Shown: positions 7,904 through 29,404 of the stretch, in pieces
How positions within the stretch are numbered: position 1 is the stretch's first letter
Layout: every line of letters starts with the position of its first letter
Virus record (IMG/VR): IMGVR_UViG_3300025449_000447
Location: 1-63,814 of that record
Length of the DNA: 63,814 nucleotides
Reading direction: 5' to 3' (one strand)
Source: a virus
Translations under genes and position numbers: made by a program
The notes under the pieces: model-generated
The model's input: the letters and a program-made list of their open reading frames with translations, nothing else
What the model was told of the DNA's origin: nothing
Database searches by the model: none

Positions 7904-8889
7904 TGATCTTAACAAAGACTCCATTACGTATCAGTTTCTTCAGCGGTGGCAGCGATCTGCCATCGTTTTATTCTAAGGAAGATGGTGCTGCTCTCTCTGT
8001 TACTATAAGCAAATACATCTATGTCATGGTTCATAAGACACCTCACCTCGGTGTTAAAGTGATGTACGATCAGATTGAAGAATTTCCTGATGTTGAGGCA
8101 ATGCAAACAAACATTACCAGCGAGACATTGAAGTACTTCAACATTGAGAAAGAAATAACAGTAGCATCTATATCTGATATTCTATCTAAGGGATCAGGTC
8201 TAGGATCATCATCTGCTTTTACCGTTGGTCTGATTAATGCATTATCAGCAAGTAAATGGGGTGTTGCCTCTAATGGTTACCTAGCAGATATTGCCTGCGA
8301 GATAGAGATGAATAGATGTAACTATCCCGTAGGAAAACAAGACCAGTATGCTGCTGCTTATGGTGGGCTGAACCTATTTCGTTTTAGAAAAAATGGTGAG
8401 GTATCAGTAGACCATACAAATGTTTCCCTTTCTACCCTAGGCAAATTAGAATCAAATCTAATGCTAGTATATAGTGGAAAGGGCAGATCAGCAAATAGTA
8501 TCTTACAGAAACAATCAGCAGCAATGAGTGATGCTGATAAGTTCAATCTAGTAAGACGTAGCAGAGACAAAGCATTTACTGGTCTTGAATACCTGCGCAA
8601 TGGTGATGTTGACTCTTTTGGTGACCTATTACATGAGGCATGGCTAGATAAGAAAGGAGTAGTCAGCGAGATAACACAAGACTACTTCGATGACGTGTAT
8701 CAAAATATAAGAATAGCTGGAGCAATTGGTGGTAAACTACTTGGTGCTGGCGGTGGTGGTTTCTTTATATTCTATGTTACTCCTGATAAACAAGAGCATG
8801 TCAGACATCATATTGAAAACTATACTTCATGTAAAGTGTATGACTTCAAATTCACTGATCGTGGATCCCAAATAGTTTCAATTTGCTAA
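7903..8889 (+). CDS. hddA: GHMP kinase, HddA-like (D-glycero-D-manno-heptose-7-phosphate kinase)
   Basis: 328 residues, normal HddA length. Family landmarks are TPLRISFFSGGSDLP at the N-terminus, the ATP-binding GSGLGSSSAFTVGLINAL near residues 97-114, PVGKQDQYAAAYGGLN (catalytic region), and the C-terminal GGKLLGAGGGGF. HddA phosphorylates heptose 7-phosphate at C1. Its presence with GmhA- and GmhB-like genes is the main reason to read the operon as a heptose pathway. The start overlaps the glycosyltransferase stop (TAATG). Confidence 0.88.
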   Translation: MILTKTPLRISFFSGGSDLPSFYSKEDGAALSVTISKYIYVMVHKTPHLGVKVMYDQIEEFPDVEAMQTNITSETLKYFNIEKEITVASISDILSKGSGLGSSSAFTVGLINALSASKWGVASNGYLADIACEIEMNRCNYPVGKQDQYAAAYGGLNLFRFRKNGEVSVDHTNVSLSTLGKLESNLMLVYSGKGRSANSILQKQSAAMSDADKFNLVRRSRDKAFTGLEYLRNGDVDSFGDLLHEAWLDKKGVVSEITQDYFDDVYQNIRIAGAIGGKLLGAGGGGFFIFYVTPDKQEHVRHHIENYTSCKVYDFKFTDRGSQIVSIC

Positions 8890-8899
8890 ATAATAGTGC

Positions 8900-8928
8900 T
8901 TGACTTATTACGAGAAAAGCATTATTAT
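8900..8928 (+). promoter_or_regulatory. Sigma70-type promoter before the 126-residue gene
   Basis: TTGACT at 8900-8905 and TATTAT at 8923-8928 with a 17-base spacer, preceded by AATAGTGC as in the early promoters from 12.5 kb onwards. It lies in the gap after the sugar operon and would start the replication genes. Confidence 0.6.
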
Positions 8929-8945
8929 AATCATAGGTAAAACAT

Positions 8946-9326
8946 ATGGATAATGTAATCAAGTTTCCTAAGAACAACATTAATCCTTCGTTCGTTCCCA
9001 ACGATCTGAACGAGATTGATGAAAGAATGCAAATGATAAAGTTCCAACATATCATTGAGACTCTTGAGACTATTCTACCTACACTATTCCAGCAGATTGA
9101 ACTTGCTGGTTTCAATATAAACGACGAAGAAGATATATCTATTAAAGATGGTGCGTTTGTGATAGAAGCAATTAGATCATTCCTATGTAAGACGCATGGT
9201 ATAGACCATCCGTTTCAGACAATAGCAGAGGAAGTATTTGAGCGAACAAGCGATACTACCTTTAGAATTATTGATAAGCTGAATGTTACACTTAAAGAAG
9301 ACATGATGGAGAAAGGAACCAGCTAA
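8946..9326 (+). CDS. Conserved hypothetical T4-like protein
   Basis: 126 residues, acidic and largely helical, with an N-terminal MDNVIKFP. Proteins of this size and composition sit near replication genes in T4-like cyanophages. No catalytic motif is seen. It is the first gene after a sigma70-like promoter. AACCAG (9317-9322) and CTGGTT (9330-9335) form an inverted repeat around its stop codon. Confidence 0.6.
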   Translation: MDNVIKFPKNNINPSFVPNDLNEIDERMQMIKFQHIIETLETILPTLFQQIELAGFNINDEEDISIKDGAFVIEAIRSFLCKTHGIDHPFQTIAEEVFERTSDTTFRIIDKLNVTLKEDMMEKGTS

Positions 9327-9343
9327 TAACTGGTTGTTATAAT

Positions 9344-10192
9344 ATGATTATTGTTGACCTCAATCAAGTAATGCTGTCTAATCTACTAATGCAATTGGGT
9401 AATCATACAAACGCTCAACTAGAAGAGAACATGGTACGCCATATGGTTCTCAATTCATTACGTTCTTATAGGCAGAAGTTCGGTAGTGAATATGGTGAGT
9501 TGGTGATTGCTTGTGATAACACCAACTACTGGCGTAAACAGGTTTTCCCATATTATAAGGCGAACCGTAAAAAGAATCAAGAGAAATCTGAGCTTAACTG
9601 GCAATCAATCTTTGAGTGCATGAATAAGATTCGTGCTGAGCTCAAGGAGTATTTCCCATACAAAGTAATTGATATTGAATCAGCTGAGGCGGATGATATC
9701 ATTGCCACACTCGTGAAAGAGTTTAGCGAGTTTCCAGCCCAAGATATCCTAATCTTATCTGGTGATAAAGACTTCATTCAATTACATGTGAATGATAACG
9801 TAAAGCAGTATGATCCAGTACGTAAAAAGTATATCAAACATGCTGATCCTGTACGTTACCTCAAAGAGCATGTATTAAAGGGAGACTCGGGCGATGGCGT
9901 ACCTAATGTGCTTTCTAATGACAATTGTTTTGTTGTTGGTGAGCGTCAGAAGCCATTGACTCAAAAGAAGATTGATGCTTTGTTAGATACAGATATTGAT
10001 GAAAAGCATCCTAACTATCGCAATTACATGCGAAACAAACAACTGATTGACCTAAGTATGGTTCCTATTGATATTTCTATGAAAGTGATGGAATCATATG
10101 ATAGTCAGTCATCAAAAGGTCGTGAGAAATTACTTAATTATTTTATCGTGAACAAACTGAAACATTTAACAGAACATATTTCGGAGTTTTAA
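9344..10192 (+). CDS. rnh: RNase H / FEN-type 5'-3' exonuclease (T4 Rnh-like)
   Basis: 282 residues; T4 RNase H is about 305. FEN-family acidic motifs are in order: MIIVDLNQ (Asp5), VIACDN then YYKANRKKN (arch entry), SAEADDIIATL, LSGDKDFIQL, and GDSGDGVPN (helix-3-turn-helix). It removes RNA primers from lagging-strand fragments in T4 replication. No clear Shine-Dalgarno precedes the ATG; an inverted repeat at 9317-9335 sits just upstream, so coupling to the previous gene is possible. Confidence 0.9.
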   Translation: MIIVDLNQVMLSNLLMQLGNHTNAQLEENMVRHMVLNSLRSYRQKFGSEYGELVIACDNTNYWRKQVFPYYKANRKKNQEKSELNWQSIFECMNKIRAELKEYFPYKVIDIESAEADDIIATLVKEFSEFPAQDILILSGDKDFIQLHVNDNVKQYDPVRKKYIKHADPVRYLKEHVLKGDSGDGVPNVLSNDNCFVVGERQKPLTQKKIDALLDTDIDEKHPNYRNYMRNKQLIDLSMVPIDISMKVMESYDSQSSKGREKLLNYFIVNKLKHLTEHISEF

Positions 10193-10196
10193 TAAT

Positions 10197-10691
10197 ATGG
10201 CAACTAGAGTAGGCGTGGCCGAGTTCTTAGAGAAGGTAAGTAAACTAGGAACAGAACAAGAAATGATAGATGCGCTCAAATTTAATGATAGCGTAATCTT
10301 GCGAATGGTGCTTCAGGGAGCATATGATCCCGCAGTAAAATGGTTGTTACCTGAAGGTAGACCACCATACAAAGTAAATGATCTAGTAGATCAAGAGAAT
10401 GTATTCATTCGCGAACACCGTAAGCTGACCTATTTTGTTGAGGGATTCTATCCTAATCTACCTCAGACCAAGCGCGAACAGATGTTTATTGAATTGTTAG
10501 AGACGATAGCACCAGCCGATGCTGAAATGTTATGCGCGATCAAAGATAAACAGTTTCCTTGGCCTAGAATCACAGAAGAAGTTGTAAGAACAGCATTCCC
10601 TGATATGATACCTACACCAATGGAACCAAAGTTGGTTTTGCCTACACCAAAAAAGAAGTTATCCGACAAAGTAAAGGAGATCACTGGTTAA
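10197..10691 (+). CDS. Conserved phage protein (DUF6433-like)
   Basis: 164 residues. N-terminal helices (GVAEFLEKVSKL) are followed by LRMVLQGAYDPAVKWLLPEGRPPY, a pattern seen in a protein family shared by T4-like cyanophages beside rnh. No enzymatic motif is visible; the C-terminal third is proline- and lysine-rich. It lies 4 bases after rnh and is probably co-translated. The family name is from memory and should be confirmed. Confidence 0.6.
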   Translation: MATRVGVAEFLEKVSKLGTEQEMIDALKFNDSVILRMVLQGAYDPAVKWLLPEGRPPYKVNDLVDQENVFIREHRKLTYFVEGFYPNLPQTKREQMFIELLETIAPADAEMLCAIKDKQFPWPRITEEVVRTAFPDMIPTPMEPKLVLPTPKKKLSDKVKEITG

Positions 10692-10692
10692 C

Positions 10693-10896
10693 ATGTCTAA
10701 GTCTAAGAACACAAGGTATAACAATCATAATGATGATCGTGATTATATTGATGGTGATGATGTTAGAAGGGAACGTAATAATAAACGAGATAAGCGACTG
10801 TCTCGCGCTATTAAGACCAAGAACATAGATCAATTGCTTGAGTTGGAAGAATACAACGAGGAACAATATAGTTATGCCAACATATACGTTCGTTAA
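10693..10896 (+). CDS. Small highly charged hypothetical protein
   Basis: 67 residues, rich in Asp, Arg, Lys and Asn, with no hydrophobic core in the first half. It starts one base after the preceding stop, and its end overlaps the next start. No function is recognised. Confidence 0.5.
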   Translation: MSKSKNTRYNNHNDDRDYIDGDDVRRERNNKRDKRLSRAIKTKNIDQLLELEEYNEEQYSYANIYVR

Positions 10897-11110
10897 CAAT
10901 GATACTGGTGATTACTTTGAAGAATTCATGTCAATGAGTGAGTTAGATAATTATCTAAAAGCAAACCCAAATGTAACACAAACGATTGGTGCAGTGAACC
11001 TAATATCTGGTGTGCCTAAGAAACCAGATGATAGCTTTAGAGACATTCTAAGAAACATCAAAAAGGGTAACTCTAAAGGATTTACAAGGAGCACGATCAA
11101 TACTTTCTAG
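10874..11110 (+). CDS. FmdB-like small protein lacking the zinc ribbon
   Basis: 78 residues from ATG 10874. MPTYTFVNNDTGDYFEEFMSM matches the start of FmdB-type regulatory domains and of short proteins common in T4-like cyanophages, but the CxxC pairs of the zinc ribbon are absent. SGVPKKPDDSFRDILRNI near the C-terminus is also typical of the phage version. Function is unknown. It overlaps the preceding gene by 23 bases. Confidence 0.6.
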   Translation: MPTYTFVNNDTGDYFEEFMSMSELDNYLKANPNVTQTIGAVNLISGVPKKPDDSFRDILRNIKKGNSKGFTRSTINTF

Positions 11111-11119
11111 GAATATTAA

Positions 11120-11866
11120 ATGGTTCAACCCCCAAGAATATCAAGAAAAGAAAAAAGAAAACAACAACAAGAGGGTAATAATAAGAACGATAACAGTGTA
11201 AAACTGAACTTCAAACTAAGAAACATTGAACCGTTAACGGAGAATCAAAAGAGAACGTTTGAAGCATACTATGAAGGCAAGAACCTAATGTTACATGGTA
11301 TTGCCGGAACGGGTAAGTCCTTTATCGCTAACTATCTAGCAACCAAAGAGATACTAGAAGAGAATAGCAGATATAAGAAACTAGTAATCGTTAGATCAGT
11401 GGTACCAACTAGAGATATGGGCTTTCTACCAGGAAGCAATAGAGAGAAGACCAAGGTATATGAAGCACCATATCAGGCAATCTTTACTGAGTTGTTTAAT
11501 AGGGGTGACGCTTATGAATACCTCAAGCAACGAAACATTGTTGAATTCATTAGCACATCGTTCATTCGCGGTATAACATTGAATGATTGTATTGTTGTCG
11601 TTGATGAGATAGCAAATCTTACATTACATGAGCTTGATTCTGTTATCACTCGTGTTGGTCGTAATTGTAAGATACTATTCTGTGGTGATTTTAGACAATC
11701 AGACTTCACCAAAGAACATGAAAAGAATGGGCTGGTTGACTTTATGAAAATAATAGATAGAATGAAGTCGTTCGAATTTATAGATTTCGACGAGAACGAC
11801 ATAGTTAGATCAGCAATGGTGAAGGAATATATAATTGCAAAAGATAGACTCAAAATCGTCGCATAA
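11120..11866 (+). CDS. phoH: PhoH-like ATPase
   Basis: 248 residues. Walker A GIAGTGKSF is near residues 60-68, Walker B IVVVDEIANL near 155, and a sensor region ILFCGDFRQSDF follows. An N-terminal basic, Gln-rich extension precedes the domain. PhoH-like P-loop ATPases are widespread in marine phages; their role (RNA or phosphate metabolism) is unsettled. The 3' end overlaps the nuclease gene by 32 bases. Confidence 0.9.
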   Translation: MVQPPRISRKEKRKQQQEGNNKNDNSVKLNFKLRNIEPLTENQKRTFEAYYEGKNLMLHGIAGTGKSFIANYLATKEILEENSRYKKLVIVRSVVPTRDMGFLPGSNREKTKVYEAPYQAIFTELFNRGDAYEYLKQRNIVEFISTSFIRGITLNDCIVVVDEIANLTLHELDSVITRVGRNCKILFCGDFRQSDFTKEHEKNGLVDFMKIIDRMKSFEFIDFDENDIVRSAMVKEYIIAKDRLKIVA

Positions 11867-12506
11867 CTTTGACCTACAACTATTACCAAAGTCAAAGATA
11901 GTACGAGAAGTAATAAACGGAAAGCGCCATTATGTAACACCTGATGGCGTTTTCCCATCTGTAACGACTGTACTTGGTAGAGTACAAGATAAGACAGCAT
12001 TGAACGAGTGGCGTGCTAGAGTAGGCGAAGCAGAAGCCAATAAGATAAGCACTCAAGCAGCAAACAGAGGTACAGCAGTACATGATATGCTTGAGAAATA
12101 CGTCAAGAGAGAAGACTATCAAGTAGGCCAGATGCCCGCCAACAAATTGATGTTTGACTCTATTAGATCTGTACTAGACAAGAACCTAACCAAAGTATAC
12201 GGTATAGAGTATCCACTCTGGTCTAAGCGATTGTATACTGCTGGAACTACTGATATGATTGGTGAATACAATGGAGTAACAAGTATTGTTGACTTCAAGA
12301 CCAGTCGTAGACTCAAGGAAGAGAGTTGGATCGAGTCATATTTCCTACAATCAACAGTATATGCTATGATGACCGAAGCAAGGACTGACCTAATAGTTCC
12401 TCAGATCGTAATCATTATTGGTGTTGATGATGAACCAGAGCCACAAATATTTGTGAAGTCTTCCTATGACTTCCGTGATAAGGTTCAAACCATTTTCAAA
12501 AAATAA
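11835..12506 (+). CDS. PD-(D/E)XK exonuclease (RecB/MGME1-like)
   Basis: 223 residues. GTAVHDMLE supplies the helical His/Glu element. GTTDMIGEYNG followed by IVDFKTSRR gives the Asp...Asp-x-Lys active site of RecB-family nucleases. SYFLQSTVYAMM matches the downstream Gln-Tyr motif. Similar ssDNA exonucleases occur in T4-like phages. The start appears to be TTG 11835: no ATG occurs before the conserved domain, and GAAGGA sits 8 bases upstream. It starts inside phoH, so the two are coupled. Confidence 0.82.
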   Translation: MQKIDSKSSHNFDLQLLPKSKIVREVINGKRHYVTPDGVFPSVTTVLGRVQDKTALNEWRARVGEAEANKISTQAANRGTAVHDMLEKYVKREDYQVGQMPANKLMFDSIRSVLDKNLTKVYGIEYPLWSKRLYTAGTTDMIGEYNGVTSIVDFKTSRRLKEESWIESYFLQSTVYAMMTEARTDLIVPQIVIIIGVDDEPEPQIFVKSSYDFRDKVQTIFKK

Positions 12507-12529
12507 TTTAATTTTTTCAAAAAAAGTGG

Positions 12530-12559
12530 TTGACTTTTTTTAGCACATTCACGTATGAT
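12530..12559 (+). promoter_or_regulatory. Early promoter 1 of the small-gene region
   Basis: TTGACT (12530-12535), 18-base spacer, TATGAT (12554-12559). It is preceded by a TTTTTTCAAAAAAA element and followed by GATAATATGATGA, shared with later members of the family. Confidence 0.75.
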
Positions 12560-12586
12560 GATAATATGATGAATGAGGGAAAGCAA

Positions 12587-12781
12587 ATGACAAACCAAGA
12601 GATCGCTAAGTCAATCCGCCATAATCTGTTCGCTGAACGTGACAATCTGAAGGAGGCGTTTGATTATGCCTTTAAGACATTCCGTACGCTTGGCGCCAAT
12701 GAACTGGCGGCGACCACGGCATTGTTCGTGGTGCTGAATACGCTCGCAAATGAATTAGAGAAAAGTGAAAAAACTGTTTGA
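12587..12781 (+). CDS. Small hypothetical early protein
   Basis: 64 residues, helical, beginning MTNQEIAKSIRHNL. The ATG at 12587 is chosen because GAGGGA (12575-12580) is 6 bases upstream; in-frame ATGs at 12566/12569 lie in the conserved leader. A single gene behind its own promoter. Function not recognised. Confidence 0.6.
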   Translation: MTNQEIAKSIRHNLFAERDNLKEAFDYAFKTFRTLGANELAATTALFVVLNTLANELEKSEKTV

Positions 12782-12806
12782 CTTTTTTTCAAAATGAACG
12801 TATGAT
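12778..12806 (+). promoter_or_regulatory. Early promoter 2
   Basis: TTGACT (12778-12783), 17-base spacer, TATGAT (12801-12806), then GATAATATGATGATGA. The -35 box overlaps the stop codon of the preceding gene. Confidence 0.75.
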
Positions 12807-12839
12807 GATAATATGATGATGAAGCAAAGGAAGAGCGAT

Positions 12840-13130
12840 ATGAGCGGCATTGAAATCCTGATCGGCGACCACCAAGGTATCTATATCCCCCAACAGTTTG
12901 CCATGTATCACGAGGATATGGATAATGTATCCGCCGAAGATATGGAAATCCTTAAGACTGGCCCAGACCACGAACACTACTGGGAAGCATGGGATTCCGT
13001 GCTTCAGAATGCCACGGCAACCCATAACGGTAATGTGTGGCGTCTGTACCAAGACGGTGATCTGTTTGCCGTATGCTATGAGCTGATGACCGATCAGGAG
13101 TATAAAGATTTTTTCGGCGAGGAGCGATAA
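12840..13130 (+). CDS. Hypothetical early protein
   Basis: 96 residues, acidic, with aromatic-rich stretches such as HEHYWEAWDSVL and NVWRLYQDGDLFAVCYELM, suggesting a compact beta domain. AAGGAAG at 12827-12833 supports ATG 12840. Proteins with this pattern occur in other large phages but no function is known to me. Confidence 0.6.
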   Translation: MSGIEILIGDHQGIYIPQQFAMYHEDMDNVSAEDMEILKTGPDHEHYWEAWDSVLQNATATHNGNVWRLYQDGDLFAVCYELMTDQEYKDFFGEER

Positions 13131-13148
13131 TTTTTTCAAAAAAACTAT

Positions 13149-13177
13149 TTGCTTTTTATCAGGAAATGACCTATACT
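13149..13177 (+). promoter_or_regulatory. Early promoter 3
   Basis: TTGCTT (13149-13154), 17-base spacer, TATACT (13172-13177), followed by GATAATATGATGATG. Like promoter 1, a TTTTTTCAAAAAAA element precedes it. Confidence 0.7.
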
Positions 13178-13204
13178 GATAATATGATGATGGAGGGAAA
13201 TGAT

Positions 13205-13408
13205 ATGTATACTTTTGTGATCGGCGTATATGAAGCTGGCGTATTCCGTGATGACCGAACCAACCGATTGTTAAAATATGAGACAGTCCGTGCTCGTACC
13301 CCAAAAGACGCTCTGAACCTAGTCAAAGATATGTATACAATCAGTATTACCCCAGTAGGTAATATATCCTATTCAATCCTTCGCTCTGATTATAAGGAAA
13401 TAGCATAA
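13205..13408 (+). CDS. Small hypothetical early protein
   Basis: 67 residues: a short beta-rich domain beginning MYTFVIGVYEAGVFRDD, then RARTPKDALNLVKDMY. GGAGGGA (13192-13198) fixes ATG 13205. The pattern resembles small single-domain phage proteins of unknown role. Its stop overlaps the next start by one base. Confidence 0.55.
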   Translation: MYTFVIGVYEAGVFRDDRTNRLLKYETVRARTPKDALNLVKDMYTISITPVGNISYSILRSDYKEIA

Positions 13409-13797
13409 TGGCTACTCGTTCTTTCATTGCTATCTATGACCCCCAAGACCCATCAATCATCAATGGTATCTATTGCCATTATGATGGCTATGTTAGTGGC
13501 GTCGGTGCTATGTTACTTAAACATTACAATAATCAGTTTCTGGCAGATATGTTAGTTTACAATGGTGATATTAAGATTCTGGCTGCTAAGATATCTGATT
13601 GTGATATGTCCTATACCGTAAAGAACCCTTTCTGTCAGTATGTATCAGAAAAAGAACTATTAGAAGAAGCAGAAGACCAAGGTATTGAATATGTATACCT
13701 GTATACTAATAGTGAATGGAAAGTGTATAGAGTATTAGACCGAAACAAATGGGAATCAGTCTCTGATATACTCCAGGAAACCAAACAATATGCCTAA
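13408..13797 (+). CDS. Conserved phage protein (MATRSFIAI... type)
   Basis: 129 residues. It begins MATRSFIAIYDPQ, followed by GIYCHYDGYVSGVGAMLLKHY. This signature recurs in small proteins of many large phages and some plasmids, with no assigned function. A single globular alpha/beta domain is likely. It overlaps the next gene by 8 bases, forming a three-gene run with 13205 and 13790. Confidence 0.6.
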   Translation: MATRSFIAIYDPQDPSIINGIYCHYDGYVSGVGAMLLKHYNNQFLADMLVYNGDIKILAAKISDCDMSYTVKNPFCQYVSEKELLEEAEDQGIEYVYLYTNSEWKVYRVLDRNKWESVSDILQETKQYA

Positions 13798-14137
13798 TAT
13801 ACTATCATTCATCAATACACCAGAACAAGAACGTAAGAATAGAATCAAACTATCACTTGCTGCATATGCATATGAGTTCGATAATAACTCTATAATGAGT
13901 GATGGTGACTTTGATGAACTGTCTAAATGCATTGATGTTACTATGCCTACTACTGAAACATACCATACTAAGGAGCAACTACTAAGATATACTGCTCTTG
14001 ATGCCTTCTTTATTAAGGAATTCCAAGCAGATACTGGTCAATGGATACATAAACACCCAGAACTACCAGTACTTGCTGCTCTCTATACTAAGCTGTATAA
14101 GTCAAATACTCGTAAACGTAGGAAGAAAACAAAATGA
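13790..14137 (+). CDS. Conserved hypothetical phage protein
   Basis: 115 residues. YAYEFDNNSIMSDGDFDELSK at about 27-47 is followed by TGQWIHKHPELPVLAALYTKLY and a basic tail. The SDxxFDxL element recalls the N-terminus of NAD-dependent DNA ligases, but no ligase catalytic motif follows, so this is not called a ligase. Marine phages carry similar proteins. Confidence 0.55.
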   Translation: MPNILSFINTPEQERKNRIKLSLAAYAYEFDNNSIMSDGDFDELSKCIDVTMPTTETYHTKEQLLRYTALDAFFIKEFQADTGQWIHKHPELPVLAALYTKLYKSNTRKRRKKTK

Positions 14138-14250
14138 AAACATCATCATCTCGGAATTCCTCGATTAAATCCATCAAACCTATTGGCTCTAAGCGTAAGA
14201 TTGCTAAGATTGGCAGTATTAAACCAATTAAACCACGGGGTAAACGGTAA
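14134..14250 (+). CDS. 38-residue basic micro-protein
   Basis: A 38-codon frame starts as ATGA on the preceding stop. It has many Lys, Arg and Ser and no acidic residues, with Ile-x-Pro-(I/R)-G type repeats. The overlap supports translation. A nucleic-acid or ribosome-binding role is possible from composition only. Confidence 0.45.
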   Translation: MKTSSSRNSSIKSIKPIGSKRKIAKIGSIKPIKPRGKR

Positions 14251-14410
14251 TCTATAGTGGTATTCACTAAGATATACTGATACTGTAGTGTTTTCCACTA
14301 GTAAATGGCGTGTATTTAGTGTGGCTTTAAATCCCCTTTATTTAAATGGTGGCGTGTCGTGTTCTGGTCGTGTCTGTGCGAAAAAAAATAAAAAAAGATA
14401 GAAATAGTGG
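14251..14410 (+). other. Non-coding gap with twin TAGTG-N5-CACTA hairpins
   Basis: Two identical inverted repeats, TAGTG with five bases then CACTA, lie at 14255-14269 and 14286-14300. Neither is followed by a T-run, so they are not classic terminators; they could be RNA stability or protein-binding elements. The rest up to the promoter is A+T-rich with no gene seen. Confidence 0.4.
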
Positions 14411-14439
14411 TTGCTTTTTTTCGTGATGTGGCGTATGAT
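14411..14439 (+). promoter_or_regulatory. Early promoter 4
   Basis: TTGCTT (14411-14416), 17-base spacer, TATGAT (14434-14439), preceded by AATAGTGG and followed by GATAATATAAG. Confidence 0.75.
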
Positions 14440-14468
14440 GATAATATAAGTTGAAAAGGAAAAACCAA

Positions 14469-14681
14469 ATGACCGCCATTGAAATTCTTCGTCTCGCTGC
14501 TACCACCCAATTCCGTCCTTTCGATAAAGCCGATTGGATGAGCTTTGCTGGCTGTAACTCACAAAACCCACTGATCGGTGAGGCGGGTAATTATATTGTC
14601 ATTATAGACGACGAAGTCATTGCCGTCCTAGACGAAGATAACAACGAATTCTCCGTTGAGGTTTCTCTCGTTCAAAAATAA
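14469..14681 (+). CDS. Small hypothetical early protein
   Basis: 70 residues. It starts MTAIEILRLAATTQF, with a C-terminal half of alternating acidic and hydrophobic residues (YIVIIDDEVIAVLDEDNNEF) suggesting a beta sheet. AAGGA (14456-14460) is 8 bases before the ATG. Monocistronic behind its own promoter. Function not recognised. Confidence 0.6.
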   Translation: MTAIEILRLAATTQFRPFDKADWMSFAGCNSQNPLIGEAGNYIVIIDDEVIAVLDEDNNEFSVEVSLVQK

Positions 14682-14689
14682 AATAGTGC

Positions 14690-14718
14690 TTGCTTTATTT
14701 CTGATCTTAGGGTATGAT
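14690..14718 (+). promoter_or_regulatory. Early promoter 5
   Basis: TTGCTT (14690-14695), 17-base spacer, TATGAT (14713-14718), upstream AATAGTGC, downstream GAATTATAGTTTG. Confidence 0.78.
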
Positions 14719-14747
14719 GAATTATAGTTTGAAAAAGGAAAAGTGTT

Positions 14748-14993
14748 ATGCAAACGATTCAGTATAATGGTGTTACCTACCCCATCACCCAAGACTTTCT
14801 TCTTGCTGTTGCTGAGCTTGATGGTCGTCTAGTAGATAATGATGGTGAGTTCGCGGTAGAATTTCCCACCCATGACGAGTCAGATCTATTCGAGTGGTTC
14901 CTCGAGGATGGTGCTATTAATCTTAGCTGGGGCGATGATGACGGCCAGCCAAGCGAGATGGATGAGTGGCTGGATTTTGATCCTGACTGCTAA
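14748..14993 (+). CDS. Small acidic early protein
   Basis: 81 residues, strongly acidic (many Asp/Glu in the C-terminal half), which could suggest a DNA-mimic or a binder of a basic host protein, but this is composition only. AAGGAA (14735-14740) lies 7 bases before the ATG. Single gene between two near-identical promoters. Confidence 0.6.
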   Translation: MQTIQYNGVTYPITQDFLLAVAELDGRLVDNDGEFAVEFPTHDESDLFEWFLEDGAINLSWGDDDGQPSEMDEWLDFDPDC

Positions 14994-15002
14994 AAATAGT
15001 GC

Positions 15003-15031
15003 TTGCTTTATTTCATTGTCTAGGCTATGAT
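15003..15031 (+). promoter_or_regulatory. Early promoter 6
   Basis: TTGCTT (15003-15008), 17-base spacer, TATGAT (15026-15031), upstream AATAGTGC, downstream GAATTATAGTTTG. Nearly identical to promoter 5. Confidence 0.78.
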
Positions 15032-15057
15032 GAATTATAGTTTGAAAGGGAAAAGCA

Positions 15058-15372
15058 ATGGCTGAGTATGGATATCAGTATACCGAAGAAGAACTCGTGT
15101 TGATGCGGGCACTGTTTGATGATAGTCGCACTGACCGACCCGAATTATTCAAAGCCATTGCCGAGAGCACAGCCAAGACTCAGGCTGAACGGTCTCAATA
15201 TAAGAGCTTCATTCAGGGTCAGGTCAGACGTTTAGAGGAGCGAGCAGCACAGCTTGGCTTCATTAAACTGAACGTAGCACCACATGATATCCAGGACTTA
15301 GAGCTTTACTTAAATGAGCTCTTGGGGTATATTGCCTTCAAGGAAATCGTCGACGAATATCACAGCTACTAG
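15058..15372 (+). CDS. Hypothetical helical early protein
   Basis: 104 residues, mostly helical and charged, with a long central amphipathic stretch (SQYKSFIQGQVRRLEERAAQ). AAAGGGA lies upstream of the ATG. Monocistronic. No family recognised. Confidence 0.6.
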   Translation: MAEYGYQYTEEELVLMRALFDDSRTDRPELFKAIAESTAKTQAERSQYKSFIQGQVRRLEERAAQLGFIKLNVAPHDIQDLELYLNELLGYIAFKEIVDEYHSY

Positions 15373-15403
15373 AAAAAAAAGAGCAGCCACCGAGAGAAAG
15401 TGG

Positions 15404-15432
15404 TTGCGTTTTATCCCAGTCTAGGGTAAGAT
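15404..15432 (+). promoter_or_regulatory. Early promoter 7
   Basis: TTGCGT (15404-15409), 17-base spacer, TAAGAT (15427-15432), followed by GATAATATAAGTTG. Confidence 0.65.
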
Positions 15433-15460
15433 GATAATATAAGTTGAAAAGGAAGCTACT

Positions 15461-15580
15461 ATGACCGAAGATATCTTGGAATTCGTTGCTGGCGTGGCCC
15501 TGTTGGCTATCACTCTGTTCGCCCTCACCCCAGCATTCTGGTTGATGATCCAGTCTCTCGGGCGAGCGATCGGAAAATAG
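15461..15580 (+). CDS. 39-residue single-pass membrane micro-protein
   Basis: A 39-codon frame follows AAGGAAG at a normal distance behind its own promoter. After a short acidic N-terminus it has about 22 hydrophobic residues (VAGVALLAITLFALTPAFWL), a clear transmembrane helix, and a basic C-terminus. A promoter devoted to it argues it is real. It could act on the host envelope early in infection (inference). Confidence 0.6.
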   Translation: MTEDILEFVAGVALLAITLFALTPAFWLMIQSLGRAIGK

Positions 15581-15583
15581 TGC

Positions 15584-15612
15584 TTGCTTTATTACTGGTA
15601 TTACCGTATAAT
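15584..15612 (+). promoter_or_regulatory. Early promoter 8
   Basis: TTGCTT (15584-15589), 17-base spacer, TATAAT (15607-15612). It carries the AATAGTGC upstream element, which overlaps the preceding stop codon. Confidence 0.75.
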
Positions 15613-15644
15613 CATATTGTGATGATGATAAATGGAGAATGTGA

Positions 15645-16112
15645 ATGTCTAAACGTGCAGTAATGGTCGCAGTGATCAATGACAATCAAGACAAGCCATA
15701 TGAGACTGTGGTGCAGATGATTGCTGATGCTGTATCGATCCCAATGACGAATGCCCGAGGTGCCTATCGGTTCCTCGTCAAGAACGGACTGGCTAATGGA
15801 TCGCTGGATAATATCCCAGCTCGTACCAAGAAGCCCAAGACCGTCACCCTAGCGTCGATCCATAAGAAAGTAGCACAGAAGTATCGTGAGAAGGCAGCAG
15901 CGAAAGCTGTAGTCGATCCTGAGATCAAGGCACGTAACCTGGCAAAGCTGCGGATGGCTGGTGAGTCATTCGTGAAGCGTCCGAAGGAAGTAGTGCAGCT
16001 CCGCGAGCAGGTCAAGGACATGTATCGTGAGATCGACGAGCGTAAGGAACTGCAGGACGAGCTGCGTGCTAACATCCCATCGTCACTGCATCGTGATCTT
16101 GGACTAGTCTGA
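15645..16112 (+). CDS. Hypothetical early protein, possible helix-turn-helix plus coiled coil
   Basis: 155 residues. The first 50 include VVQMIADAVSIPMTNARGAY, which reads like a winged or helix-turn-helix unit. The middle is very basic, and the C-terminus (VQLREQVKDMYREIDERKEL) is a likely coiled coil. A DNA-binding role is possible but not shown. It ends just before a strong terminator, so it is the last gene of its unit. Confidence 0.6.
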   Translation: MSKRAVMVAVINDNQDKPYETVVQMIADAVSIPMTNARGAYRFLVKNGLANGSLDNIPARTKKPKTVTLASIHKKVAQKYREKAAAKAVVDPEIKARNLAKLRMAGESFVKRPKEVVQLREQVKDMYREIDERKELQDELRANIPSSLHRDLGLV

Positions 16113-16137
16113 TATTTGTTGTGTTGATAACGACTTG

Positions 16138-16164
16138 GTGGGGCTTCGGCTCCACTTTTTTTTT
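16138..16164 (+). terminator. Rho-independent terminator
   Basis: GTGGGGC, loop TTCG, GCTCCAC (7-bp stem with one G-U) directly followed by nine T. The UUCG tetraloop and T-run make this the clearest terminator in the early region. Confidence 0.92.
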
Positions 16165-16175
16165 AGAAATACTGC

Positions 16176-16204
16176 TTGCTTTTTTTCAGCATCCGAGGTA
16201 AGAT
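16176..16204 (+). promoter_or_regulatory. Early promoter 9
   Basis: TTGCTT (16176-16181), 17-base spacer, TAAGAT (16199-16204), then GATAATATGATGATGA. It starts right after the terminator. Confidence 0.72.
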
Positions 16205-16231
16205 GATAATATGATGATGAAGGAAAATGAT

Positions 16232-16480
16232 ATGCTGACGATCGAGATGATACTTCCCCGCCACTGGGCATATGCTCTCAACTATGGTGAGATGGATGGT
16301 CTCGATGAAGACGAGATCAAGTCCATTGAAGAGTTCCAGCAATGGATGATTAAGGAATATGGTGGATGCTGGTGCCTCGAGGTCTCTGGTGACTACTGGT
16401 TCTCGAAGTTCCATGATGCATCTGAGTGGGTGCTTCCCTGCGACGTTTCCACTTTCACATTTGACATTACACCGGAGTAA
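16232..16480 (+). CDS. Small hypothetical early protein
   Basis: 82 residues. MILPRHWAYALNYGEMDGLD is followed by GGCWCLEVSGDYWFSKFHDAS. This aromatic-rich pattern is shared by a family of small proteins in large phages and mobile elements whose role is unknown. AAGGAA (16220-16225) supports ATG 16232. Confidence 0.6.
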   Translation: MLTIEMILPRHWAYALNYGEMDGLDEDEIKSIEEFQQWMIKEYGGCWCLEVSGDYWFSKFHDASEWVLPCDVSTFTFDITPE

Positions 16481-16483
16481 GCC

Positions 16484-16681
16484 ATGAGAGAAGAGACACT
16501 CGAGCGCCTCTATGAGAAACAGATGGATCACCTAGACAGCGATCTCATGAAGAATCTCCTGACTCAGGAGCAGTATGAGCAGAGGGTCGCGAATCTTGAC
16601 AGGTGGCTGGCTTCTTGGCAGGGACTGATCTGGACCAGTCGGTCGACCGACTTCGACGTGTCGGTGCGCACCAAAAAATAA
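16484..16681 (+). CDS. Small hypothetical protein
   Basis: 65 residues, charged and helical in the first two thirds (ETLERLYEKQMDHLDSDLMK). It starts 3 bases after the previous stop, so it is in the same unit. Not recognised. Confidence 0.55.
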   Translation: MREETLERLYEKQMDHLDSDLMKNLLTQEQYEQRVANLDRWLASWQGLIWTSRSTDFDVSVRTKK

Positions 16682-16694
16682 TTAAAATAATCGC

Positions 16695-16723
16695 TTGCTT
16701 TATTTCACGAATCGGCGTATACT
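16695..16723 (+). promoter_or_regulatory. Early promoter 10
   Basis: TTGCTT (16695-16700), 17-base spacer, TATACT (16718-16723), followed by CTTAATATGATGATGAA. Confidence 0.73.
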
Positions 16724-16750
16724 CTTAATATGATGATGAAGGAGTTGAAA

Positions 16751-16948
16751 ATGACAGTATCTGAAGCAAGAGTGATTATCGAACGTGTCCGCGAAGAGAA
16801 TGGCTTCGGCCTCCTGGAGCTCCTTGAAATTATGCATGATGAGCGCGAGGCTGGTAAGGATTTCTTCAACAGCATCTATTCCAAAGAAGAGCGTCAGGCG
16901 TATGACGTGATGATGACTGGTTTCTATCAATTGTTCCATGGAGCTTGA
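16751..16948 (+). CDS. Small hypothetical early protein
   Basis: 65 residues, helical, beginning MTVSEARVIIERVREENGFG. AAGGAG (16739-16744) is 6 bases before the ATG. First gene of a run of six tightly packed small genes (16751-17907). Not recognised. Confidence 0.58.
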   Translation: MTVSEARVIIERVREENGFGLLELLEIMHDEREAGKDFFNSIYSKEERQAYDVMMTGFYQLFHGA

Positions 16949-16949
16949 T

Positions 16950-17189
16950 ATGTTTGTATATGTTTTGACTTCCGCTACTGCATATGAGGGTGAAGATCTC
17001 GTCGGTGTGTATTCCGATCTGCCATCAGCCCAATTCGCTGCAGGCCACTATGCAGCTCGTTCTGAACGGGACGATCGCTCCGAGGGGTACTGTGCAGGTG
17101 GCGATTACTACAACGTCTATTGTGTAGAGGTCGGTCGTGCAGGTCGCTGGTACACCGATGAAGATGTGGTCTGGTCCTCAGGAGAATGA
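16950..17189 (+). CDS. Small hypothetical protein
   Basis: 79 residues beginning MFVYVLTSATAYEGEDLVGV, with a Gly/Tyr-rich middle. The ATG at 16950 is chosen because GGAG lies 6 bases upstream; an in-frame ATG at 16938 would overlap the previous gene. Similar short proteins that start with this beta hairpin occur in many phages without known function. Confidence 0.52.
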   Translation: MFVYVLTSATAYEGEDLVGVYSDLPSAQFAAGHYAARSERDDRSEGYCAGGDYYNVYCVEVGRAGRWYTDEDVVWSSGE

Positions 17190-17190
17190 T

Positions 17191-17403
17191 ATGACCGATT
17201 ATGATACACGCCATGGTGGTGCATATGATCGTGGTGGCGCCGATGCCTACTATGGTCGTGCCTTCGATCCTCACTATTATGTTGGTAGCAGTGAGAAGTC
17301 CCTTCGCATAAAGATCGATGATCCTGACAGCGAAGATTGGAAGGCATATGCTGCAGGCTTCCGTGATACTGTAGAGGCTGGCGACTTCAAGGATTGGGGC
17401 TGA
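17191..17403 (+). CDS. Small hypothetical protein
   Basis: 70 residues, with a Gly/Asp/Tyr-rich N-terminus and then DWKAYAAGFRDTVEAGDF. AGGAGA precedes ATG 17191. An upstream in-frame ATG at 17137 is rejected because it would run inside the preceding gene. Not recognised. Confidence 0.5.
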   Translation: MTDYDTRHGGAYDRGGADAYYGRAFDPHYYVGSSEKSLRIKIDDPDSEDWKAYAAGFRDTVEAGDFKDWG

Positions 17404-17405
17404 GA

Positions 17406-17612
17406 ATGGCTAAGTTGGTATACTGGATCTGCGATGTTCGGGAAGATTCGAAGTGTTACAATATCCGTGCTCGCACCAAGAAGGCAGCTGTCAAGCGTCG
17501 CGAGGAGCTCGGTCCCTGGAACTACGACGAGCCAAGGAAGCATGTAATCGAATACATCAATACCTACGACCTGATGGATATCTGCCTGAGTGAAGCGCGA
17601 GGATACGAGTGA
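17406..17612 (+). CDS. Small basic hypothetical protein
   Basis: 68 residues. MAKLVYWICDVREDSKCYNI is followed by a basic helix (RTKKAAVKRREEL). It starts 2 bases after the preceding stop and ends as TGATG on the next micro-gene. Not recognised. Confidence 0.52.
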   Translation: MAKLVYWICDVREDSKCYNIRARTKKAAVKRREELGPWNYDEPRKHVIEYINTYDLMDICLSEARGYE

Positions 17613-17764
17613 TGGAATCTTTCTTACGTCTTATTATGAATATCTTGATCGTGTGGTGCTCGATCTATTTCGTCGAGTGGCTGTGCAACGGAGACTTCCA
17701 GCGCGAGGTCGTCTATCTGTTTGCACTAGTGATGGTCGATCTGATGATGCTGCGCCAGTCATGA
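17612..17764 (+). CDS. 50-residue membrane micro-protein
   Basis: A 50-codon frame starts at ATG 17612 on the previous stop and ends TGA overlapping the next ATG (ATGA at 17761). It is strongly hydrophobic, with two probable transmembrane stretches (LRLIMNILIVWCSIYFVEWL and VVYLFALVMVDLMML). A longer overlapping frame from GTG 17590 has no membrane or domain features and is judged a shadow in this stretch. Confidence 0.55.
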   Translation: MESFLRLIMNILIVWCSIYFVEWLCNGDFQREVVYLFALVMVDLMMLRQS

Positions 17765-17907
17765 GAGTCACTTTCAGTGCCTTTACTCAGGGTGGAGCGA
17801 ATCGTATGGCGATGGTCTATAAGAAGGCAGGATGGAAGATCCTGAACGTCCCCGTCCTTAATGAGAAGACTACATTATGGGAATGGAGCATGGAAAAAGC
17901 CGATTGA
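17761..17907 (+). CDS. 48-residue hypothetical protein
   Basis: 48 residues beginning MRVTFSAFTQGGANRMAMVY; start overlaps the membrane micro-gene stop as ATGA. It is the last gene before promoter 11, whose -35 box overlaps its stop codon. Not recognised. Confidence 0.5.
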   Translation: MRVTFSAFTQGGANRMAMVYKKAGWKILNVPVLNEKTTLWEWSMEKAD

Positions 17908-17932
17908 CTTTTTTCAAAATATGACGTATACT
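17904..17932 (+). promoter_or_regulatory. Early promoter 11
   Basis: TTGACT (17904-17909), 17-base spacer, TATACT (17927-17932). It drives the DUF932 gene. Confidence 0.75.
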
Positions 17933-17966
17933 TATTATAATGAATACTTGCCTAGAGGAGATAAAC

Positions 17967-18914
17967 ATGGCTCATGAGATTGAAATCGTCGATGGTGTTG
18001 CAAAGATGGCCTATGCAGGGGACGTTCCCTGGCATGGTCTTGGTGTTCGAGTCCCTGATGACGTGACCCCTGAACAGATGCTTCAGGCTGCAGGTCTAGA
18101 CTGGACCGTAGAGAAGATCCCTGGATTCGCCACTATCAATGGCGTCCAGACTCCCATCGACCGTTCTGCACTGGTTCGCTCCAGTGATCATAAGATCCTC
18201 GATGTGGTGTCCGATGACTGGAATCCCGTTCAGAATCGCGAGGCATTCGAGTTCTTCAATGACTTCGTTGCTGCAGGTGATATGGATATGCATACGGCAG
18301 GTTCACTGAAGGACGGTCAGATCGTCTGGGGTTTGGCGAAGGTCAAGGAGAGCTTCGAGCTCTTCAAGGGAGATCGTGTTGAGGGATATCTGCTCTTCTC
18401 GAACTTCCATCGTTATGGCAACTCGACGACCGTTCAGTTCACACCGATCCGTGTCGTATGCAATAACACCCTGACGCTCTCGCTCAATACGAAGGTCGAG
18501 AACATGGCGAAGATCTCTCACCGTCGCGTATTTGACGGAGACTCAGTGAAGGAGATGCTGGGAGTCGCGAAGCACAAGCTCGCTGCATACAAGGAGATGG
18601 CAGCATTCCTTGGTGATCGTCGCTACAATGACGAGAACATCGTAGAGTACTTCACACGGGTCTTCCCTGTGGCTGGCTCTAAGAAGGACATGTCAAAGAA
18701 CGCCGAGCTGGCATTCCACGTCTTGGAAGAGCAGCCTGGGACGGAGTTCGCTCCAGGGTCTTGGTGGCAGGCGTTCAATGCAGTCACCTACCTGACGGAT
18801 CACTTGGCAGGTCGCTCTGCTGACAATCGCCTCCAGTCAGCATGGTACGGTCAGAACAAGGGAGTCAAGACTCGTGCTCTTGAGTTGGCCGTCGAGATGG
18901 CGGAGGCTGCGTAA
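17967..18914 (+). CDS. DUF932 phage/plasmid-type protein
   Basis: 315 residues. The start AHEIEIVDG, then WHGLGVRVPDDVTPEQMLQAAGLDWTVE, later TPIRVVCNNTLTLSL and the C-terminal NAVTYLTDHLAGR are hallmarks of the DUF932 (phage/plasmid-like, TIGR03299) family. The function is unknown, although plasmid and phage members are common. GAGGAGAT lies before ATG 17967. Its G+C-richer codon choice (gac, gtc, cgc) differs from the A+T-rich virion genes. Confidence 0.85.
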   Translation: MAHEIEIVDGVAKMAYAGDVPWHGLGVRVPDDVTPEQMLQAAGLDWTVEKIPGFATINGVQTPIDRSALVRSSDHKILDVVSDDWNPVQNREAFEFFNDFVAAGDMDMHTAGSLKDGQIVWGLAKVKESFELFKGDRVEGYLLFSNFHRYGNSTTVQFTPIRVVCNNTLTLSLNTKVENMAKISHRRVFDGDSVKEMLGVAKHKLAAYKEMAAFLGDRRYNDENIVEYFTRVFPVAGSKKDMSKNAELAFHVLEEQPGTEFAPGSWWQAFNAVTYLTDHLAGRSADNRLQSAWYGQNKGVKTRALELAVEMAEAA

Positions 18915-23022: not shown

Positions 23023-23411
23023 TGAGAGAAGATCTGATGGTCCAGCAACAGATTGATGGCCCATGGCAACATATGGTCGGAGTCATGATGCTGAACCTGA
23101 CTGATCGAAAGGTAGTAAAACAGATACTGCCACAGTTTCTTGAACGCTGGCCAACACCAGAGGCTCTACTTCGCAGCCGCATCATTGATATAGAAGAGAT
23201 GATTAAGCCTCTGGGCCTCTACCGTCGGCGTGCAAAGGCGATCTATCGGATGAGCATAGACTTCCTAAGCTGGGATGGTAAGGACGCTACACAGCTTCAT
23301 GGTATCGGTCAGTATGGTTCGGAGAGTTATCGCATCTTCTTTCTTGGCGAGACCCTCGAGCCACAAGATAAGGAATTAAAAAAATACATGCTTGACATTA
23401 ATACCAAATGA
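23022..23411 (+). CDS. HhH-GPD DNA glycosylase, MBD4-like
   Basis: 129 residues, only the compact catalytic core. WQHMVGVMMLNLTDRKVV (15-32), FLERWPTPEALL (39-50), KPLGLYRRRAKAI (62-74), the helix-hairpin-helix LHGIGQYGSESYRIF (92-106) and PQDKELKKY with candidate catalytic Asp116 match the MBD4 glycosylase domain in order. MBD4 removes T or U opposite G. No iron-sulfur cysteines and no lyase lysine in the hairpin, so a monofunctional glycosylase is expected. Role in phage unknown: mismatch repair, or action on modified or host DNA. Confidence 0.8.
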   Translation: MREDLMVQQQIDGPWQHMVGVMMLNLTDRKVVKQILPQFLERWPTPEALLRSRIIDIEEMIKPLGLYRRRAKAIYRMSIDFLSWDGKDATQLHGIGQYGSESYRIFFLGETLEPQDKELKKYMLDINTK

Positions 23412-23420
23412 GGGTATGAT
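23392..23420 (+). promoter_or_regulatory. Sigma70-type promoter
   Basis: TTGACA (23392-23397), 17-base spacer, TATGAT (23415-23420). The -35 box is inside the end of the glycosylase gene. It drives the 57-residue gene and the GIY-YIG gene. Confidence 0.78.
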
Positions 23421-26793: not shown

Positions 26794-26910
26794 ATGATTC
26801 CTAGCTGGTATAAAATCTACACACGCATCATTGACAATACTATAAAGATAGTTTGGTTGATATTACTGATAACATGGCTGCTTGATGGCGCCAAATTGCT
26901 TGTAAAATAA
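26794..26910 (+). CDS. 38-residue membrane micro-protein
   Basis: A 38-codon frame one base after the preceding stop, with one clear transmembrane helix (IKIVWLILLITWLLDGAKLL) and a basic N-terminal half. It ends one base before the -35 box of the tmRNA promoter. Confidence 0.5.
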   Translation: MIPSWYKIYTRIIDNTIKIVWLILLITWLLDGAKLLVK

Positions 26911-26911
26911 C

Positions 26912-26942
26912 TTGACTTTTTACCCAATGTAGGCTATAAATA
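26912..26942 (+). promoter_or_regulatory. tmRNA promoter: sigma70-type with overlapping T4 late octamer
   Basis: TTGACT (26912-26917), 17-base spacer, TATAAA (26935-26940). The -10 box extends to an exact TATAAATA (26935-26942), the T4 late-promoter consensus. The RNA might therefore be made both early and late. Confidence 0.7.
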
Positions 26943-26944
26943 AT

Positions 26945-27268
26945 ATGCGATGGTCGTTGACGTTATACGGCATAAGCACACTGGACTCGGGGGCGGTACC
27001 CGACGCCTCCACCATAGATACATGGTGCTGTTACCAATTAAGGTGTAAGGATGCCATCAAAAAGAACGTACAGCTCCGTTCTGGCAAATCGTCATCATGT
27101 ATCTTTGCTGGGGGCGAAATAGGATCGACAGGTGTGATAAAGGTATTACTGAGATCATAGCAAACGTCATAGATGCAAACGATAATGCACCTATCGCTAT
27201 GGCACTAGCTGCCTAAGCATGAGCTTTTGGTAGTTTTGGCTTGGAAACAGAACAAAACTACCGTCAAT
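26945..27268 (+). ncRNA. ssrA: Circularly permuted (two-piece, alpha-type) tmRNA
   Basis: The gene has the acceptor piece first and the coding piece second. Acceptor piece: T-arm TCGGG/CCCGA (26987-27003), then CGCCTCC-A-CCA ending at 27014. About 95 bases of intervening sequence follow. The coding piece starts GGGGGCG (27110-27116), which pairs with CGCCTCC over 7 bp and includes the G3-U70 pair recognised by alanyl-tRNA synthetase. AAATAGGATCGACAGG follows as in alphaproteobacterial tmRNA. The tag frame encodes ANDNAPIAMALAA then TAA. GGTAGTTTTG/CAAAACTACC (27229-27238, 27253-27262) forms a 10-bp hairpin. TTGACG (26957-26962) can pair with CGTCAA (27262-27267) to join the pieces. Outer ends are approximate. 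Confidence 0.9.
27175..27216 (+). other. tmRNA proteolysis-tag reading frame
   Basis: The resume codon is taken as GCA 27175, preceded by TAG plus two bases as in E. coli tmRNA. It reads ANDNAPIAMALAA and stops at TAA. The AND start and the ALAA end, a ClpXP-type degron, are typical. An in-frame GCA also occurs at 27160, five codons earlier, so a longer tag is possible. Confidence 0.85.
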
Positions 27269-27719: not shown

Positions 27720-27776
27720 GCTGTGTTTCCTTTCTAACATAGAGTCAGTGGGATTGCCCTCCGCGACTGACAATAT

Positions 27777-28817: not shown

Positions 28818-29398
28818 TGTCAGCATTTGAATGTTATAAAGAATATCTTGCTCTGAAGAACCACTTCACCAAGCCAAGTTATGATTACTTCAAATATGCA
28901 GGTAAAAGCAGAGTTTCTTTTGACTCTTTTGAGAAGAGAAAAGATAAACTATACTTTATGAAGGTCGCCAAACACACTGACCCAGTAAACTATATTTTGT
29001 CTAATCTCCTTGTGAACGAGAAAACTTGGATAAAAGAAATTGCATATTCTTCAACAGCCGAACAGATCTATCAGGATTGGCTGAAGCGTAAAGAATCACT
29101 TACCTACAATTTTACAAACGAACTATCTAAATTAGATGAGGATTTCAATTCTAATTTTAAGATAAAAGACAACAGTCACCCACTGTTGCTGAAACTTTAT
29201 CTTCGTAATGAAGTTTCTCTTGAGACCCTGATCATACTGGCAGATATGGTTCAGTGTATGGTATACTGGAATAAGAAGATGGAATATGATCCGTCTTGGG
29301 CAAGCATCTCAACTAAGATTATCAAGTATAGACCATTCTTAAACTACGACAGAGAAAAGTTTAAGAAGATAGTACTTGACAAATTTAGCGATGTTTAG
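28814..29398 (+). CDS. 59: gp59-like replicative helicase loader
   Basis: 194 residues; T4 gp59 is 217. The N-terminus FECYKEYLALKNHFTKPSYD followed by YFKYAGKSRVSFDSFEKRKDK is characteristic of T4-like gp59. The all-helical remainder fits. gp59 loads gp41 helicase onto gp32-coated forked DNA, consistent with gene 32 directly downstream. The gp32 promoter lies in its last codons. Confidence 0.85.
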   Translation: MMSAFECYKEYLALKNHFTKPSYDYFKYAGKSRVSFDSFEKRKDKLYFMKVAKHTDPVNYILSNLLVNEKTWIKEIAYSSTAEQIYQDWLKRKESLTYNFTNELSKLDEDFNSNFKIKDNSHPLLLKLYLRNEVSLETLIILADMVQCMVYWNKKMEYDPSWASISTKIIKYRPFLNYDREKFKKIVLDKFSDV

Positions 29399-29404
29399 TA
29401 TACT
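29376..29404 (+). promoter_or_regulatory. Promoter of gene 32
   Basis: TTGACA (29376-29381), 17-base spacer, TATACT (29399-29404), preceded by AGATAGTAC similar to the early set. It lies at the end of gene 59 and gives a leader of roughly 70 bases. Confidence 0.75.

Follow-up and report, generated by a model that had tools for sequence, protein, structure and literature searches.

The window analysed here, a 63.8-kb IMG/VR virus record (IMGVR_UViG_3300025449_000447) that represents a fragment and not a complete genome, comes from a freshwater T4-like myovirus and carries at 12530-17932 an array of eleven sigma70-type promoters. These are probably early promoter-leader units whose mRNAs start with AUG and admit ribosomes both there and at a Shine-Dalgarno (SD) sequence. 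The array, the unit shared by its members, the leader dialects of individual phages and a frame rule tied to one position can all be read directly from the DNA, and a frame rule that is specific to one position is what one would expect if the 5' AUG were really used in translation.

All eleven promoters described in an earlier note on this DNA are present, as are the four further ones it placed at 8900, 23392, 26912 and 29376, and the 17-base spacer holds throughout the eleven except for the 18 bp at 12530. The pattern TTG(AC/CT/CG/AT)T-N17/18-TA(T/A)NNT occurs 12 times on the plus and three times on the minus strand of 8801-18000, compared with an average of 0.31 and a maximum of 2 in 200 dinucleotide shuffles. 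The uniformity that had been ascribed to the array is nevertheless only partial. TTGACT stands at three of the eleven (12530, 12778 and 17904; also at 8900), while seven read TTGCTT and one TTGCGT, and to the -10 spellings TATGAT, TATACT and TATAAT has to be added TAAGAT, found at 15404 and 16176. The upstream element AATAGTGC and the sequence GATAATATGATG after the -10 box, both attributed to most copies, are each exact in only four of 12. The 8-mer AATAGTGC by itself is barely above chance on the plus strand of the window (5 vs 1.65), and what is general above the -35 box is an A/T-rich stretch rather than this exact element. The other leaders following the -10 box among the 12 are GATAATATAAGTTG and GAATTATAGTTTG (two each), and CTTAATATGATGATG and CATATTGTGATGATG (one each).

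Six units of the window carry an ATG at offset 6 or 7, where offset 6 denotes an ATG exactly six nucleotides (nt) after the -10 box, which is the predicted +1. In all six this ATG is in frame, with no stop in between, with an SD-led start 21 or 27 nt downstream. The first promoter, TTGACT-N18-TATGAT (12530..12559, +), has a leader with a predicted 5'-terminal ATGATG (12566..12586, +) in frame over 21 nt with the start at 12587, and the second, TTGACT-N17-TATGAT (12778..12806, +), a leader beginning with ATGATGATG (12813..12839, +) in frame over 27 nt with the start at 12840. Leaders beginning with ATGATGATG and in frame over 21 nt also follow TTGCTT-N17-TATACT at 13149..13177 (+; leader 13184..13204, +, start 13205), TTGCTT-N17-TAAGAT at 16176..16204 (+; leader 16211..16231, +, start 16232) and TTGCTT-N17-TATACT at 16695..16723 (+; leader 16730..16750, +, start 16751), the last being followed by about six small open reading frames (ORFs). 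At TTGACT-N17-TATACT (17904..17932, +), before the phrog_1221 (DUF932-like) gene, the ATG lies 7 nt after the -10 box and the leader (17940..17966, +) is in frame over 27 nt with the start at 17967. The gene starting at 12840 is a member of phrog_21544, and its orthologues begin at the internal ATG. Orthologues without the 5' ATG begin at the internal ATG, and the internal start is therefore taken to be the older one.

The rule extends to the viral promoters collected ahead of a strong-SD start, the leaders of which were clustered. Of the 79 leader clusters in this set that have an ATG at offset 6, 53 keep it in frame (p 9e-10), as do 50 of 65 with short leaders (p 8e-13). No frame rule was found there for ATGs at offsets 4, 5 and 7-16; among 11 cases of TTG or GTG at offset 6, just 2 are in frame, and leaders without a 5' ATG fall into the in-frame class in 129 of 365, which amounts to no rule. 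Unique leaders give 58/73 vs 131/344 in the control (Fisher p 1e-10), and one vote per sequence group, a crude grouping, leaves 14.8 of 22 in frame (p 9e-4). When viral sequences were scanned for TANNNT-GATAATATGATG with a good -35 box and a called start, 29 of 30 sites among the matches listed were in frame, at distances of 18, 21, 24 and 27 nt, some of them in phages whose flanks are GC-rich (L280, L193, L204); in the lone exception, L249, the stop codon of an upstream ORF overlaps the start codon as TGATG. The pattern TTGACA-N17-TATAAT-N6-ATGATG in viral contigs is followed, again among the matches listed, by an in-frame SD start in 21 of 91 cases and by a leaderless ORF without SD start in 43 of 91, compared with 4 and 3 of 68 for the N10 version. 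Among the matches listed for bacterial genomes, the N6 pattern heads leaderless ORFs in 35 of 108 cases, and the SD-led subset shows no frame bias (11/13/11).

The TTG of the TATAAGTTG dialect was considered as a second start and rejected, as just 12 of 50 TTG or GTG codons at offset 10 are in frame. AUGs at offset 5 show no bias either (frames 5/7/8), and many of them consist of an AUG followed directly by a stop (the CAGTAATGTGA dialect). Such AUG-stop leaders at the predicted RNA start were encountered in L006, L126, L161, L170, L209 and L236, with unbiased frames of the SD start, and could be minimal AUG-stop ORFs. As a separate observation, nearly half of the consensus phage promoters with an offset-6 ATGATG in L284-L403 head apparently leaderless genes, among the matches listed; many of these come from different phages, and leaderless phage genes may be under-annotated.

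In the mechanism that we propose, the promoters would be read by the host sigma70 RNA polymerase, each serving a short operon of small takeover genes. Together with its 5' leader, a promoter would make up a unit of ~65 nt that passes by copying from one gene to others unrelated to it and stays similar within a given phage lineage. Transcription would begin at the A that lies six nt past the -10 box, as judged from the expected spacing, and half of the units would thus have ATGATG(ATG) exactly at the expected transcription start. The predicted RNA consists of AUGAUGAUG, a purine-rich, unstructured stretch with the SD sequence, and the conserved start; the SD sequence would lie 10-20 nt in, and the gene start 18-27 nt downstream of the 5' AUG in the same frame. 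The 5'-terminal AUG probably lets 70S ribosomes bind and initiate by the leaderless route, in addition to the SD route. Because the frame is kept, either entry point would give the same protein and both would be productive, the product having or lacking an extension of 6-9 residues. Candidate gains are more initiation, resistance to changes of initiation made by host or phage, or the extended isoform. We infer that the promoters act early, that the RNA begins exactly at this A, that ribosomes initiate at the 5' AUG and that this is of benefit. More tentatively, many phages may possess a portable promoter-leader unit giving dual-start mRNAs, with tandem 5' AUGs and an in-frame SD start, that would supply takeover proteins even when one route is blocked or limiting.

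Several observations weigh against translation from both starts. The in-frame units of a single phage may go back to a common ancestor, and leaders of this phage family that lack a 5' ATG show a mild preference for the same class of lengths (56/126, p 0.006). Half of the array lacks an ATG at the start, the unit at 15584 (GTG) is out of frame, and orthologues of the gene at 17904 that have long leaders often carry an out-of-frame 5' ATG. In T4 itself, no promoter matches the offset-6 ATG pattern that was used.

A rather unlikely alternative is that the array merely combines strong host-type promoters with a copied leader, in which ATGATGATG would be an initially transcribed sequence aiding promoter escape and the frame would be kept through copying of the whole leader including the start codon.

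The shared unit spans ~60-75 nt from the A-rich stretch above the -35 box through to the start codon, and similarity between copies reaches from 10-18 nt above the -35 box to the SD sequence or start and no further; the leaders are unstructured. Window copies are 61-84% identical to the reference copies, and among the 12 the identity is 0.76 at the spacer start, 0.56 in the upstream 14 nt and 0.51 in the leader, falling to random level in mid-spacer (0.31) and at the gene start (0.30). Functional parts have been kept and neutral parts have drifted, and the copies here are therefore not recent, contrary to the recent spread within the window that had been suggested. The suggested promoter-plus-leader cassette fared better, as a unit of this kind does move independently of genes: the downstream genes are non-paralogous, the leaders follow dialects of the phage's own, and two relatives contain near-identical or repeated units before unrelated genes. 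Gene duplication as the source of the similarity was rejected, given that the small downstream genes show no paralogy. Direct evidence of within-genome copying comes from contig G003, where near-identical units stand ahead of unrelated proteins, and from L105 with five copies of a 106-nt unit.

Among cultured phages, no megablast match to the window was obtained and relatives were therefore sought by protein searches, ~150 relative loci being gathered via PhoH and phrog_1221. Sites picked in these by the hexamers and a 17-bp spacer alone number 201 on the plus and 77 on the minus strand, vs 27 in a first-order Markov control. Conservation past the -35 and -10 hexamers, on which the earlier note had staked its proposal, is present in the window and in the relatives, where it comprises an A/T-rich stretch above the -35 box, a T-rich spacer start, a G before the -10 box and a C-poor leader. 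In 199 sites from 58 loci, A/T makes up ~78-85% at positions 5-9 above the -35 box and the TGn position has T in just 24%, G/C preceding the -10 box instead. The relatives hold similar arrays, each phage with its own leader dialect: TATAAATTGAAA or TATGGTTGAAA in L108, TATAAGTTGA in L131, CTTACTGAAACGATGAGGACTCTGAAATG in L123 and GATAATATGATG in L105. Orthologous genes bear the dialect of their own phage: before the 14411 gene, the leaders of the window and of L108 are TATAAGTTG, those of L360, L099 and L105 ATGATG. Over all loosely defined sites, leader identity within and between dialects differs weakly (0.337 vs 0.310), because many chance sites were counted; the dialects are visible in arrays and orthologues. 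An array is also found in the cultured Methylophilales phage Melnitz (12 on the plus vs 4 on the minus strand, 1 in the control), and the same kind of scan showed no such array in Sinorhizobium phage phiM12.

That leaders are copied as units in the relatives, that the position of the ATG is fixed to the -10 box and not to the start codon, and that leaders of the family show a mild preference for one length class would all suit simple copying. However, the lengths vary (18, 21, 24, 27) and yet the frame is held, unrelated phages follow the same rule, and the rule is absent at other offsets and for TTG or GTG at offset 6; these points argue against it.

Much less probable is a phage activator or repressor that reads the shared elements, either at a MotA-like middle promoter via TTGCTTTA or as a factor reading the leader. 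At eight of the eleven promoters the -35 box is TTGCTT or TTGCGT, which is weak and resembles a MotA box, and the TTGCTT spelling is mostly peculiar to this phage. Compared with the spacing of T4 MotA sites, however, TTGCTT lies here ~2-3 bp too far upstream, and the same leaders stand behind TTGACT and TTGCTT promoters of the window. A search that was positive for T4 MotA found no MotA domain in the window, a fragment, or in ten other phage records, some of them incomplete; no AsiA domain was found in seven phage records, some likewise incomplete, nor was an operator found. The shared regulator once proposed for the array was thus not found in these records, and the conserved positions are those to be expected from RNA polymerase contacts and the RNA 5' end. 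Slightly less probable again are genes that are plainly leaderless from the 5' ATG, the internal SD sequence and ATG being accidental or minor, since the 43 of 91 offset-6 viral promoters with a leaderless ORF and no SD start (among the matches listed) are set against six of six units here in which an SD-led ATG follows in frame at codons 7-11 (only 0.7% of ordinary genes have one), an in-frame SD start in 21 of 64 scanned units (among the matches listed) and orthologues without the 5' ATG that start at the internal one.

The remaining array promoters lack an in-frame ATG at the predicted RNA start. TTGCTT-N17-TATGAT at 14411..14439 (+) has the leader GATAATATAAGTTG, without a 5' ATG, and the same promoter sequence at 14690..14718 (+) and 15003..15031 (+) has the leader GAATTATAGTTTG. 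TTGCGT-N17-TAAGAT (15404..15432, +), again with GATAATATAAGTTG, precedes a 39-amino acid ORF (15461-15580), and TTGCTT-N17-TATAAT (15584..15612, +) has GTG at the predicted RNA start and a leader out of frame. The sole clear intrinsic terminator adjoining an array promoter lies at 16137..16164 (+). Outside the array, TTGACT-N17-TATTAT (8900..8928, +) stands before a conserved gene at 8946, several orthologues of which keep a promoter, TTGACA-N17-TATGAT lies at 23392..23420 (+), and TTGACA-N17-TATACT (29376..29404, +) precedes the gene of a gp32-like single-strand DNA binding protein (29482). TTGACT-N17-TATAAA (26912..26940, +), of the array type, stands directly before a permuted transfer-messenger RNA (tmRNA) gene of alphaproteobacterial type (26908-27262, tag ANDNAPIAMALAA), which suggests that the host or the source of the gene is alphaproteobacterial. 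In relatives, a promoter followed by the leader AAATATATTGCTTGGTTGTTGAGGCG was found repeatedly and is possibly that of their tmRNA gene. On the minus strand, a good promoter TTGACT-N17-TATAAT-CAGTAATGTGATGATGATAA (62772-62744, -) in the late region faces the end of a plus-strand gene, and its CAGTAATGTGA start occurs also in several unrelated contigs. The T4-like late promoter TATAAATA, with only 3 plus-strand and 2 minus-strand matches, was uninformative.

The array is flanked by an exonuclease gene (11835-12506) and the phrog_1221 gene (17940-18914), between which ~18 small ORFs, most without a family, lie behind the eleven promoters. The T4-like gene content of the window includes PhoH, exonucleases, a gp6-like baseplate wedge protein and the gp32-like protein. 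The same region recurs on three further contigs (L002, L009/L089 and L010/L088) with 100% protein identity in the two genes compared, and is therefore no assembly error. An HNH endonuclease ORF (27264-27773, -) between tmRNA and tRNA genes is likely a homing endonuclease insertion. A second tRNA (28189-28262), with an Rfam match, no ARAGORN match and CAT in the anticodon loop, adjoins the tRNA-Arg at 28097, and a minus-strand protein of 998 amino acids (30448-33444, -) has a Peptidase_M15 domain near its C-terminus and endolysin-like PHROG matches.

If the frame rule reflects translation, these units would make up a large natural set of mRNAs combining leaderless and SD initiation, a combination so far known from single E. 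coli mRNAs. The rule would provide a purely sequence-based test for the use of 5'-terminal AUGs and is relevant to how start codons of small phage genes are annotated. The lineage dialects show that promoter-leader units are copied and homogenised inside phage genomes independently of the genes.

Among known systems, the early promoters of T4 (PMC2988021) resemble the array in that they, too, are numerous, strong and of the sigma70 type, have conserved flanks and A/T-rich DNA upstream, and serve small takeover genes. The sigma70 -35 and -10 boxes with a ~17-bp spacer, repeated on the early strand, and the A/T-rich UP-like sequence above the -35 box are common to both. In contrast, the TGn extended -10 of T4 is replaced here by [C/G]G before the -10 box, the -35 box is mostly the weak TTGCTT, and ATG stands at the predicted RNA start. 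Promoter early stem-loop (PeSL) cassettes of T4-type phages were reportedly described by Arbiol in 2010 and Comeau in 2014. As portrayed in a paper that cites these studies (PMC4503421), they are likewise early promoter units repeated in a variable small-gene region with gene shuffling, and here too the early promoters lie among small genes that are shuffled. Assignment of the array to PeSLs was rejected, as a stem-loop or terminator joined to the promoter is clear at one of 12 only (16137); PeSLs are reported to join promoter and terminator, whereas the shared unit here joins promoter and leader. In Melnitz, for which 31 early promoters were reported (PMC9004378), there is a comparable early-promoter array, and an early promoter stands ahead of a permuted tmRNA, but the leader is another one and just three matches to the offset-6 ATG pattern occur. 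The -10-adjacent leaderless genes of Deinococcus-Thermus (PMC12340547) also have their start codon a few bases past the -10 box; unlike these, the units here have a -35 box and a second, SD-led start 18-27 nt downstream. A parallel for the proposed translation is offered by E. coli mRNAs that have a 5'-terminal AUG and an SD sequence: 70S ribosomes bind to them, and translation proceeds from both sites (PMC4965119). In one case, ptrB, the 5' AUG aids the binding of 30S subunits to the downstream start even when the upstream ORF is not translated (PMC4965119). Like these 5'-terminal upstream AUGs (Beck 2016, PMC4965119), the array combines a predicted AUG-first mRNA with a separate downstream SD-led start, the position of the AUG at the RNA end being predicted here from the distance to the -10 box and the offset-specific frame rule. 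The E. coli cases are single and, in the study set, out of frame (PMC4965119), whereas those of the phage array are repeated, tandem and in frame.

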